From NCBI RefSeq assembly GCF_025143985.1, contig NZ_CP083564.1:3246001-3310000 (forward strand): a stretch of 64,000 nt of DNA. The letters run 5' to 3'. The stretch's first letter is position 1, and every line of letters begins with the position of its first letter. Source of the stretch: Sulfitobacter sp. W027 (GTDB lineage Bacteria; Pseudomonadota; Alphaproteobacteria; Rhodobacterales; Rhodobacteraceae). The notes beneath the pieces were generated by a model. The model made no database searches, was not told where the DNA came from, and saw only the letters and a list, made by a program, of their open reading frames with translations. Positions 1,635-36,172 of this stretch are shown here, piece after piece. The position numbers and the translations under genes are program-made.

Positions 1635-2387
1635 GGCGGTCACCCACCCCAAGGTTTGCTCCGTCGGGCCGCCCGGAATATACTCCCCGCTGACAAAACC
1701 GTCATAGCCCGCTCGCAGCGCGGCAAAAAGCCCGTCGACATCAACTTCGCCACTGCCCGGCGCGCCGCGCTCTGGCGTGTCGCCTAGCTGCACATGGCGG
1801 ATCAGGGGGCGATATTCCTCGTAAACCGCCACGGCATCGCCATGGATCATCTGGGCGTGAAAACTGTCGAATTGCAGCGCCACATTGGGCGCATCTACCG
1901 CCGCTAGCAGATCCGCCGCCTGTGCGTAATCGTTCAAGAAATACCCCGGCTTGGCCTGCGGGCAAAGCGGCTCAATCATCAAAGTCACACCCGGCGGTGC
2001 CTCTGCGGCGGCATAGCGGAGGTTCGTCACAAACGCCTCACGCGCCGCAGGCCCTTCGGCCTCTCCGGCCATGACATGCACCATCTTGGGCCGCAGCGCC
2101 TCAACATAGCGCCAGACACGGCGCATATCATGGGCAAACCGCGCCTCCCCGCCCGGAATGGCGGCATAACCGGGCTGACCGCCTGTATAGTTCGGCGGCG
2201 GCGCATTGATCAGGGCAAGTGTTAACCCGTTGCGCAGCAGGGCACGCTGCGTCTCTTTCGCGGGCATATCATAGGGAAACAACACCTCAACCGCGCCAAA
2301 CCCCGCCTTGGCCGCCGCGTCGAACCGATCCAGATAGGGCAGCTCGGACCAGAGCAGCGACAGGTTGGCGGCGGGGGTTATCGGCAT
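1623..2387 (-). CDS. hyi: Hydroxypyruvate isomerase-like TIM-barrel protein
   Basis: A 254-residue protein of the xylose-isomerase-like TIM-barrel superfamily, closest in pattern to hydroxypyruvate isomerase (hydroxypyruvate to tartronate semialdehyde). Visible family blocks are NLSLLWSELPYLDRF at the N-terminus, MIEPLCPQ (metal/proton-relay Glu), LQFDSFHAQ, RHVQLGDTPERGAPGSGEVD and SGEYIPGG with the second catalytic Glu. Length matches the family (about 255-260). It is convergent with the GST gene, overlapping it by 12 bases. Other members isomerise different sugars, so the substrate assignment is by family only. Confidence 0.83.
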   Translation of the reverse strand: MPITPAANLSLLWSELPYLDRFDAAAKAGFGAVEVLFPYDMPAKETQRALLRNGLTLALINAPPPNYTGGQPGYAAIPGGEARFAHDMRRVWRYVEALRPKMVHVMAGEAEGPAAREAFVTNLRYAAAEAPPGVTLMIEPLCPQAKPGYFLNDYAQAADLLAAVDAPNVALQFDSFHAQMIHGDAVAVYEEYRPLIRHVQLGDTPERGAPGSGEVDVDGLFAALRAGYDGFVSGEYIPGGPTEQTLGWVTALGE

Positions 2388-18679: not shown

Positions 18680-19300
18680 ATGACACGCACCTATCTCCCC
18701 GGCATCCTTGCCATGGCTGCCATCGTCGTGGCCTCGAATATCCTTGTTCAGTTCCTCTTTGGCCAATGGCTGACCTGGGGCGCTTTCACCTATCCGCTGG
18801 CGTTTCTCGTCACCGATGTGATGAACCGCCTTTACGGGGCCTCCGCCGCCCGCCGGGTCGTGCTGGTGGGTTTTGTCGTCGGCTTGATCTGCTCGCTGAT
18901 TGGCACCCAGATCATGGGTGAATTTGGCCCGCTGGTAACCGTTCGCATTGCCGTCGCCTCAGGCACGGCCTTCCTGGTCGCGCAACTGCTTGACGTGACG
19001 ATCTTCAACCGCTTCCGCGACGGCGCATGGTGGCGCGCGCCTTTGGTTAGCACACTGATCAGCAGCGCGATTGATACGGCGCTGTTCTTCTCCATCGCGT
19101 TCTCGGCCAGCCTGTCGTTCATCCATACGGCCACCGATGTGGCATGGGCGGGCGAAGTGCTGCCCCTGCTAGGAGCCGGCCCCCTCGCGCCGCTCTGGGT
19201 CTCGCTTGCCGTGGCGGATTGGTCGGTGAAACTGGCCATCGCACTCGTTGCGCTGATCCCTTTCCGGCTGCTCACTGCCCGGCTGGCGACCCGCCCCTGA
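18680..19300 (+). CDS. Queuosine precursor transporter (YhhQ/VUT family)
   Basis: A 206-residue membrane protein with about six hydrophobic segments. FTYPLAFLVTDVMNRLYGASAARRVV is the family signature (YPLxFLxTDxxNExYG), and ASGTAFLVAQLLDVTIFNRFR and STLISSAIDTALFFSIAF are the other conserved blocks. YhhQ imports preQ0/preQ1 for queuosine synthesis in tRNA. I saw no preQ1-type aptamer in the 63 bases upstream. It appears to be a single-gene unit. Some VUT members have other substrates. Confidence 0.88.
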   Translation: MTRTYLPGILAMAAIVVASNILVQFLFGQWLTWGAFTYPLAFLVTDVMNRLYGASAARRVVLVGFVVGLICSLIGTQIMGEFGPLVTVRIAVASGTAFLVAQLLDVTIFNRFRDGAWWRAPLVSTLISSAIDTALFFSIAFSASLSFIHTATDVAWAGEVLPLLGAGPLAPLWVSLAVADWSVKLAIALVALIPFRLLTARLATRP

Positions 19301-19345
19301 CACCAACGCAAGGGGACAGCCTCCCCCTTGCCGCCTCACCTTCAA

Positions 19346-19359
19346 ACAAAGCGCTTTGT
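19346..19359. promoter_or_regulatory. 14-bp perfect palindrome, LacI-family-operator-like
   Basis: ACAAAGCGCTTTGT is perfectly palindromic and carries the central AAAGCGCTTT seen in operators of many LacI-family sugar regulators. It lies 61 bases before the GTG of the 18-codon leader ORF and 46 bases after the queuosine transporter stop. No LacI-type gene or sugar locus is nearby, so the regulator is unknown. Confidence 0.4.
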
Positions 19360-19419
19360 GAATTTGAAATCCTGTGCAACGCTCAGGGTGAGTTCAACAA
19401 ATGAAAAGGAGGTGATCCA

Positions 19420-19476
19420 GTGTCAAGAAAGGTATTGGAGCGAGGTGTCGGAACAGCCAGTGAGGTTTCGCGCTAG
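19420..19476 (+). CDS. 18-codon leader ORF with near-perfect Shine-Dalgarno
   Basis: GTG-initiated small ORF, product MSRKVLERGVGTASEVSR, ending at TAG. GGAGG at 19408-19412 lies 7 bases before the GTG, an optimal spacing, within a 16-base match to the anti-Shine-Dalgarno region. The peptide is basic, with no signal or membrane segment, and I do not recognise a family. It may be a leader peptide, a short regulatory protein or only a ribosome-loading site. The overlapping ATG at 19401 gives just MKRR before a stop. Confidence 0.45.
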   Translation: MSRKVLERGVGTASEVSR

Positions 19477-19548
19477 GGCAGCCCCTAGCACTGCAACCAC
19501 CTGGTGGACATCGGTCTAACCGAGATCCCCCTCCTGAAACCATTCGAT

Positions 19549-19574
19549 TGGGCCGTTCCGCAAGGGGCGGCCCA
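19549..19574 (+). terminator. GNRA-capped terminator-like hairpin between leader ORF and arfB
   Basis: TGGGCCGTTCC and GGGGCGGCCCA form an 11-bp stem (two G-U pairs) closed by a GCAA tetraloop, followed by TTTC. The short U tract makes it a moderate intrinsic terminator. It lies 61 bases before the arfB ATG, so it either ends the leader transcript or attenuates arfB. Confidence 0.6.
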
Positions 19575-19635
19575 TTTCGCATTCCCCCTTCACCCTTAAG
19601 GCGCAGACTGGCATGTTGCGGGTTAAGGAGAGCAT

Positions 19636-20058
19636 ATGCTGCACATTAACGATAACATCGCTATCCAAGACTGGGAGTTGACCGAGAGCTTCATGCGCGC
19701 CTCCGGCCCCGGTGGGCAGAATGTGAACAAGGTCTCCTCGGCGGTGGAATTGCGGTTCGAGGCCGCCACCTCGCCATCGCTGCCGCAGCCGGTCAAGAAC
19801 CGCCTGCGCCGTCTGGCCGGGCGGCGCTGGACCACCGAAGGCGCGCTGGTATTGCAATGTGATGAAACCCGCAGTCAGGCGCGCAACCGCGAGTTGGTGC
19901 GCGAGCGGCTGGCCGAGCTGATCCGCACCGCCCTGACCCCGCCAAAACGCCGCATCGCGACCCGCCCGACGCTGGGATCGAAGAAACGCCGTCTTAAGGC
20001 CAAGAAGGTACGCGGCGAGGTCAAGGCGATGCGCGGCAAGGTTGATCCGAATACCTGA
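19636..20058 (+). CDS. arfB: Alternative ribosome-rescue factor / peptidyl-tRNA hydrolase ArfB
   Basis: A 140-residue protein. The release-factor-type catalytic loop is RASGPGGQNVNKVSSAVELRF, with the GGQ that hydrolyses peptidyl-tRNA. The C-terminal tail is strongly basic (PPKRRIATRPTLGSKKRRLKAKKVRGEVK), as in ArfB/YaeJ, where it enters the empty mRNA channel of stalled ribosomes. AAGGAG lies 5-6 bases before the ATG. Upstream is the structured leader described separately. The gene is convergent with cobF (three bases apart). Confidence 0.95.
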   Translation: MLHINDNIAIQDWELTESFMRASGPGGQNVNKVSSAVELRFEAATSPSLPQPVKNRLRRLAGRRWTTEGALVLQCDETRSQARNRELVRERLAELIRTALTPPKRRIATRPTLGSKKRRLKAKKVRGEVKAMRGKVDPNT

Positions 20059-20061
20059 GCC

Positions 20062-20811
20062 TTAATTCCGGCGCAGCAGATAGATGTCCATGATCCAGCC
20101 ATGCGCCGCCCGCGCCGCTGCGCGTGTGGCGATAATGTCTTCGGTGACGTCAGCCAGCGGGCCATGACGGATGATCTCTTCGGCCATGCCGACATAGGCG
20201 CCCCACCAGATCGACACGCCCGCAGGGTCCAGCGTCTGAAAAGCGCAATCCCCATCAAGCATGATCACCAACGTATCGACCCCCTCGGGCCAGCCGTGGT
20301 CGCGCAGCTGCCGCCCGGTGGTCACCAAGAAGGGCGCACCGATTTCATTCAGCGGGATCGCATGCGACGCTGTCAGCCCTTGCAGCGAGGTGATGCCGGG
20401 GATCACCGTCATACGGGGTGCAGGCTTTAGCCGCGCGGCAATCCGCAGGGTGCTGTCATAGAGCGACGGATCCCCCCAAACCAGCAGCGCCACCCGCCGC
20501 GCCGTTGGGTGCTGTGCCATTGCCGCGCGCCATGCATCTGCAATCGCGTCATGCCAATGGTCGACGCGGGCGCGGTAATCTTCGATCGCGGGGTCGCGCA
20601 CGGGCAGATCGAAGCCGACGATCTGCACTGCTTCATTGGTCAGCAGCTCGTCGCAGATGCTGCGCCGCAGACCCGCCAGATCATCCTTGCCCGCGCCCTT
20701 TTGCGGGATCAAGATCAGGTCTTGCGCGTTCATCGCCCGGATCGCCTGTAGCGTCAGATGCTCAGGGTTGCCGGTGCCGATGCCGATCAATGTCAGTTCC
20801 AGATCAGTCAT
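20062..20811 (-). CDS. cobF: Precorrin-6A synthase (deacetylating)
   Basis: A 249-residue SAM-dependent methyltransferase. LTLIGIGTGNPEHLTLQAIRAMNAQDLILIPQKGAGKDDLAGLRR is the CobF N-terminus, which differs from other corrin methylases by the IPxKGxxKxDL segment. VIPGITSLQGLTASHAIPLNEIG and WWGAYVGMAEE are also typical. CobF methylates C1 of precorrin-5 and removes the acetyl group in the aerobic B12 pathway. The start overlaps the stop of the upstream DUF1636 gene (ATGA). It is the last gene of the minus-strand cob block and convergent with arfB. Confidence 0.95.
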   Translation of the reverse strand: MTDLELTLIGIGTGNPEHLTLQAIRAMNAQDLILIPQKGAGKDDLAGLRRSICDELLTNEAVQIVGFDLPVRDPAIEDYRARVDHWHDAIADAWRAAMAQHPTARRVALLVWGDPSLYDSTLRIAARLKPAPRMTVIPGITSLQGLTASHAIPLNEIGAPFLVTTGRQLRDHGWPEGVDTLVIMLDGDCAFQTLDPAGVSIWWGAYVGMAEEIIRHGPLADVTEDIIATRAAARAAHGWIMDIYLLRRN

Positions 20812-35776: not shown

Positions 35777-35791
35777 ATCTAGCGTTTCATT

Positions 35792-35983
35792 CGCTTGGCA
35801 GGTCTCCTGGCTCGCGGGTCGTGGCCTTTGCCCGCCTTCCCCGTCCAAAAGGACAAGTGGCACGAGGGGCATTGGCTCACCGCTTACAGTCGCGGGGGCG
35901 GCTTCGGCTTCGGGGTCTTGCGACCCCTTACTGAATTCCCTTTTCGGTCCCACACCCAAAGGCGCTTCTCGGGACACCAAGCG
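35792..35983 (-). promoter_or_regulatory. Cobalamin (B12) riboswitch upstream of cbtB
   Basis: On the minus strand P1 is a perfect 7-bp pairing (CGCTTGG at 35983-35977 with CCAAGCG at 35798-35792). The aptamer core is clear: AAAAGGGAATTCAGT, GCCGCCCCCGCGACTGTAAG, GTGCCACTTGTCC, GGGGAAGGCGGG and the B12 box GAGCCAGGAGACCTGCC. It ends about 46 bases before the cbtB ATG, where a hairpin beside the ribosome site probably switches translation. High adenosylcobalamin should repress cbtBA and the downstream cob genes. Confidence 0.96.
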
Positions 35984-36172
35984 GGTTCAATTACGCATTT
36001 TCGACCCGCGTTGACAAGCCGCATTTGGCCCCTCACCCCCACTGCCGCGCGAAACGCCACGAGGCATACCGTATCTAGTAGATAAACATTGCTTAAACCC
36101 AGTATGCGGGTTGACCCAGAAGCCACGCACAGGGCACATTATCGGCTAGTTTCGGACGAAGGGCGGCGCTTT

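Follow-up and report, generated by a model that had tools for sequence, protein, structure and literature searches.

We describe a short element of Sulfitobacter sp. W027, located beside the ribosome-rescue gene arfB, which we read as a free-standing small mRNA gene, this lineage's rreR, whose opening, translation and decay would depend on binding of the 30S ribosomal subunit (probability roughly 0.7). Comparison among relatives has shown its architecture to consist of a promoter-like block and a ~180-nt unit with a 16-nt extended Shine-Dalgarno (SD) sequence, a GTG-started open reading frame (ORF) of 18 codons, a terminator-type hairpin and a predicted conserved fold. The element is very widespread in its family. 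Its apparently self-masking fold provides a concrete, testable model for an RNA that reads 30S supply. It also serves as a caution, in that a leader-like element beside arfB would be an independent gene that is conserved regardless of arfB.

Element architecture

The window is the whole stretch of DNA that was analysed (64,000 nt), and positions below refer to its forward strand unless marked otherwise. A promoter-like block (TTGTGA, 16 nt, AACGCT; 19356-19383) aligns with TTTG...GTGccAnccT of relatives and is kept in 83 family loci; a consensus scan of 19250-19700 found no sigma-70-like promoter. The extended SD follows at 19405-19420 and reads AAAGGAGGTGATCCAG in the window sequence. The 18-codon ORF, MSRKVLERGVGTASEVSR, encoding the putative rreR peptide, occupies 19420-19476, with a GTG start at 19420-19422 and a TAG stop at 19474-19476 that is held in a 7-bp hairpin, P5 (GCTAGGG/CCCTAGC; 19472-19489). 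Downstream are a candidate mimic of the 16S rRNA tail, GATCCCCCTCCT (19524-19535), and the terminator-type hairpin P6 (19549-19578), in which GGGCCGTTCC-GCAA-GGGGCGGCCC at 19550-19573 forms the stem and a GNRA loop, GCAA. An initial annotation, made from the window alone, had reported both a GTG-started 18-codon ORF with its stop inside a 7-bp hairpin and a GNRA-capped, terminator-like hairpin beyond the mimic, and both are present. The U-tract after P6 is weak in W027, and the consensus scan (criterion, five T in eight) found no terminator-like site in 19250-19700; for most relatives in the 71-sequence alignment the tract runs from TTT to TTTTT.

The element occurs once in the W027 genome, and its single-strand fold has a z-score of -4.43. 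Two neighbouring genes lie outside it on the same strand, a VUT/queuosine-precursor transporter gene upstream (18680-19300; TIGR00697, 96.8 bits, cut-off 50.95; PF02592) and arfB downstream (19636-20058, with its ATG at 19636; NF006718 ArfB, 188.9 bits, cut-off 100; PF00472). A tetrapyrrole methylase gene is found at 20062-20811 on the reverse strand. ARAGORN found no tRNA or tmRNA within the 64-kb window, and a Cobalamin riboswitch (122.8 bits) is located elsewhere in it, at 35780-35996 on the reverse strand.

Complementarity to the 16S rRNA tail

An Rfam 16S search, which matched just 9 of 14 control genomes, detected no 16S gene in the W027 assembly. The complement was therefore checked on 16S tails of same-family relatives using the pattern TGCGGCTGGAYCACCTCCTTT, in which one base is free and the others are fixed. 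Among 198 same-family genomes, 20 yielded a total of 28 matching tails and 178 yielded none. The free base was T in 28/28 tails, giving CTGGATCACCTCCTTT, so that the exact 16-base complement of the 16S 3' end claimed for W027 is borne out at 16 of 16 bases against these tails.

The 14-base complement GGATCACCTCCTTT has one occurrence in the 4.1-Mb W027 assembly, at the element, and the SD pattern AAAGGAGGTGRTCCAGTG was found in 134/198 family genomes; the reversed control pattern gave no match among the matches listed for those genomes. A chance match was rejected on the basis of these two results and the fold z-score. An SD variant, AAAGGAGGTGGTCC, makes up 49 of the 134 matches (hand count) and would give a G-U wobble with 16S. 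Co-evolution of this variant with 16S is unsupported, as all 28 tails read ATCACC, including those of the variant carriers G422 and G443.

Complementarity of the element body to the SD is not significant alone in W027 (z -1.51, p 0.09). It beats shuffled sequences at p <= 0.05 in 16/29 genus loci, 21/55 family loci and 5/30 class-type loci, and the last of these counts does not demonstrate a general 16S-tail mimic beyond the family. Several class relatives (L031-L043) carry TGGATC...GCCTCC within the ORF, encoding W-I-V-A-S, a sequence similar to the 16S tail except for a small bulge; this group is not significant.

Distribution among genomes

A search of Rhodobacteraceae genomes, which the initial annotation had proposed as a check, found the element to be conserved well beyond W027. 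By DNA search it is present in 57 of 58 genus genomes, its own included, and 40 class genomes yielded 3 further matches that span just the 5' end. A structure model, R1, whose rows came from 55 of the 198 family genomes searched, matched 175/198 of them at E <= 0.001, some weakly. Second strong copies were seen in G049 (contigs C27 and C158; this genome is 4% contaminated) and G479 (C19 and C41), and further family genomes have more than one R1 match.

The Rfam model of the Caulobacter sRNA CC2171 found a match in 160/198 family genomes, with 0/198 above its cut-off, and in 49 of 240 genomes sampled from the class, 7 of them above it; among 14 control genomes it matched in Caulobacter alone. 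The 29 class loci considered below are the best-scoring matches out of those 49 matching genomes. R1 scored at most 33.0 bits on them (top, L049) versus 146.7 on the W027 genome. These scores do not demonstrate that the bodies share an origin; the parts that family and class have in common are the SD-start block and the terminal hairpin.

The reading frame and its match to rreR

The ORF has 18 codons and a GTG start in 79 of 85 family loci, W027 included, and 20-26 codons in the other six. Among the 79, the stop is TAG in 47, TGA in 19 and TAA in 13. TGG, which is also reachable by the two variable stop-codon bases, occurs in none (Fisher p 3.9e-10, uncorrected for kinship); because these loci were picked for a stop at codon 19, the test shows that the two bases are chosen jointly, with the six longer ORFs as exceptions. 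The N-terminus, MSRxxLE(R/K)GVGT, is conserved. Across family loci pN/pS is 0.53 at codons 2-12 and 0.94 at codons 13-18, from which selection on the peptide would be weak or blended with selection on the RNA. Judged from these comparisons, the reading frame and its end are mostly retained, and the C-terminal residues drift. It is very unlikely that the 18-residue peptide is itself the selected product, with the RNA features merely tuning its synthesis: the conserved N-terminus and mostly constant length would suit such a role, but not the pN/pS of the C-terminal third, nor the class loci, where the same SD precedes different peptides of 18-35 residues.

Our preferred reading, a small mRNA gene in its own right, was the alternative that the initial annotation had named as a free-standing transcript encoding the peptide, and the comparison of sequences supports it. 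We match the element to rreR, an already described kind of gene that it fits, on the strength of its extended SD, its GTG-initiated frame of 18 codons and its lineage. rreR is reportedly an 18-residue small mRNA counterpart, with an extended SD, of rreB of the Bradyrhizobiaceae, the latter being the case said to have been studied. The rreB RNA is said to co-sediment with 30S subunits and to be translated weakly, impeded by its long SD and GTG, and removal of its start codon reportedly stabilises it. What the W027 element has in common with these genes is complementarity to the 16S 3' end over 16 nt or more ahead of a small ORF, a GTG-started 18-residue ORF (in the 79/85 loci above), conservation across the Rhodobacter/Roseobacter lineage (the 175/198 family genomes matched by R1) and the putative form of a free-standing small transcript. 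To our knowledge, the account of rreR describes no SD-masking mimic, start-codon hairpin or arfB neighbourhood, and we know of no function for an rreR-type gene. Within the literature on CC2171, rreB/rreR, extended SDs, anti-SD sRNAs and Caulobacter sRNAs, no title among the matches listed concerned the element; the rreB/rreR reference, Hahn et al. 2017 (RNA Biol 14:1353), is cited in PMC7298713.

Conserved fold

The alignment used for folding (A1) comprised 71 sequences. L063, L106, L100 and 11 close genus relatives were omitted, L006 was dropped for lack of the SD pattern, and L059, L096, L107, L108 and L118 were dropped as duplicates. With no structure supplied, RNAalifold paired the SD with the mimic and placed the start codon in a hairpin. 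In W027 coordinates, the first of these helices, P1, joins the SD core (19408-19414) to 19528-19534 of the mimic, and 98.6% of its 495 cells are paired. P2 surrounds the GTG start (19416-19423 with 19432-19439; 97.9% of cells paired in the 71 sequences). P3 (19448-19451 with 19520-19523) and, inside it, P4 (about 19457-19460 with 19501-19504) enclose the stop-codon hairpin P5.

Of the 39 pairs counted over the 71 sequences, 20 show changes on both sides, and 94.7% of cells are paired. Cells with both-sided changes number 189 versus 74 in shuffles, and covariation is 0.284 versus 0.183, a value reached by 0/500 shuffles, with every slid version far lower; the counted structure, being 39 of the 41 pairs predicted from this same alignment, is favoured in these controls. 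Both-sided changes occur in 3/4 pairs of P3 (97.5% of cells paired), 5/5 of P4 (81.2%), 4/5 of P5 and 8/10 of P6 (97.3%), and the covariation support for the predicted fold comes from these four helices. P1 differs from them. Against a nearly invariant SD it has 43 wobble changes that keep the pair, 7 that break it and 2 gaps, and in the covariation test the shuffles tie in 500/500 cases. Since the SD is invariant, P1 varies on one side only, and covariation cannot prove it; the changes that keep its pairs are transitions, a class of substitution also favoured by mutation bias. P2 likewise changes on one side only in the 71 sequences. We consider P1 and P2 to be compatible with the alignment rather than proven. 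The compensatory changes that the initial annotation had hoped to see are accordingly found in the hairpins P3-P5 and P6, and in the pairing of SD with mimic the changes are one-sided.

Thermodynamic prediction gave a pairing probability of at least 0.5 to P1 in 64/71 sequences, P2 in 58/71, P3 in 20/71 and P4 in 35/71. Pairedness of the SD core was 0.93 versus 0.68 in shuffled bodies, and higher in 66/71 sequences; for the start codon it was 0.85 versus 0.58, and higher in 62/71. The W027 helix between SD and mimic is interrupted by a single mismatch (T19413 with C19529) that is missing from most relatives. If about 15 bases past the terminator hairpin are included, the minimum-energy fold of W027 pairs the SD elsewhere, and P1 is missing from the minimum-energy fold of L061. 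The suggestion that the mimic pairs with the ribosome site agrees with both the predicted consensus fold and the P1 probabilities. A self-masking fold of this kind, with the mimic on the SD core and the start codon in a hairpin, looks new as modelled here.

The nearly invariant CTCC core of the mimic also invites the explanation that the RNA acts in trans, its CCUCC binding the SDs of other mRNAs, or that the RNA buffers 30S subunits, which an extended SD could hold, with the ORF incidental. We think this unlikely. P1 is predicted within the molecule itself in most sequences (the 64/71 above), so that the mimic would mostly be occupied, and an incidental ORF sits poorly with a stop that is preserved across TAG, TGA and TAA in 79/85 loci.

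Proposed mechanism

As a small mRNA gene, the element may work as follows. The free RNA would be closed, with the mimic on the SD core in P1 and the start codon in P2. A 30S subunit would open it as its 16S tail pairs with up to 16 nt and displaces the mimic; this is plausible because the computed duplex of 16S tail and SD, at -28.1 kcal/mol, outweighs an opening cost of 6.7 in W027 (mean 8.3). Release into elongation would be slowed by a duplex of such unusual length and by the GTG start, and the RNA would then be mostly a 30S-bound, weakly translated species. Once the ORF is translated, the ribosome would unzip P2-P5 and leave the RNA labile. With opening by 30S and unzipping by translation, free 30S and initiation could determine how much RNA and peptide is made and how long each lasts. 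The proposed mechanism agrees, by analogy, with the behaviour reported for rreB.

Relationship to arfB and other neighbours

arfB is a frequent neighbour of the element and, by the comparison of loci, no requirement. Neighbours were tested by tblastn on the downstream stretch, mostly about 1.5 kb per locus. Of 85 family loci, 76 have arfB as a downstream gene of the same orientation (29/29 at the genus level and 47/56 in other genera), compared with 0/29 class loci outside the family. The synteny with arfB that was to be checked therefore holds throughout the genus and in most loci of other genera, and fails in the class. The transporter gene is upstream at 28/29 genus and 51/56 other-genus loci and near none of the 29 class loci. 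Neighbour proteins were identified in 10 cases. Those checked at class loci were a CoA-transferase III, DnaX, a pseudouridine synthase, a TetR protein, a serine dehydratase, a metallo-beta-lactamase fold protein and an FGGY kinase. In the other genera, 9/56 loci carry the element but show no arfB over the stretch searched (486 nt only for L085), and three of these that were checked have an amidase, a RimK-like or a flavodoxin-fold gene downstream.

The initial annotation had favoured a switch that sets arfB expression, and had taken conservation of the element at loci unrelated to arfB as the observation that would count against it. The class loci, with arfB at none of 29, are such loci. The constant linkage expected of a cis-regulatory leader is also absent from the family (76/85), and control of arfB is hence not supported as the conserved function. 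As an attenuator-like leader, the element would let 30S binding or translation of the leader set terminator read-through or arfB translation, linking the rescue factor to ribosome state. The position of arfB as the next gene on the same strand in most family loci would fit this, as would the weak U-tract in W027. The gap between the terminal hairpin and arfB, obtained for 63 loci, is <40 nt in 17, leaving no room there for a separate promoter, 40-170 nt in 42 and about 470-510 nt in 4. These four are all among the 29 genus loci, and in one, L019, an opposite-strand ORF of 145 residues (1695-2132, reverse strand) lies between element and arfB; the gaps of L016, L022 and L029 are similar to that of L019. 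Such distances, together with the arfB-less loci of other genera and the class, make a leader of this kind quite unlikely. A terminator hairpin with T3-T5 also parts the element from arfB in most of the 71 relatives in the alignment. Control of arfA-type rescue factors and leader-peptide attenuators are alike in placing a small ORF and a terminator-type hairpin ahead of a ribosome-rescue gene, but the W027-type element is also maintained where arfB is missing, and it carries a promoter-like block of its own. An improbable extension of the 30S-dependent mechanism is that the RNA senses free 30S, its own copy of the 16S tail masking the SD, and that within the family the choice feeds arfB through terminator read-through; if true, this would tie the rescue of ribosomes to their supply.

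Relationship to Rfam families

The element shares with RF01867 (CC2171) the CAACAA..GA.AAGGAGGUGAUCCAGUGUC block, which is near-identical in the two, and a GC-rich hairpin at the end. It differs in that W027 scores 37.1 bits against a gathering cut-off of 75, with the body aligned at low confidence, and membership of the window sequence in CC2171 was rejected on that score. The long-range helix that precedes the terminator in CC2171 (CAUUGUC/GACAAUG) is matched in L032 and L037; in the window it is aligned with a mispair, at a mean accuracy of 0.64. The Bradyrhizobiaceae sRNA BjrC68 (RF02353) is not among the two window matches listed at E <= 10, and it gave a weak match at L037:1594-1669 (25.5 bits, cut-off 39) that overlaps the CC2171 match. 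This overlap hints that a single gene may lie behind RF01867 and RF02353. BjrC68 might be linked to rreB.
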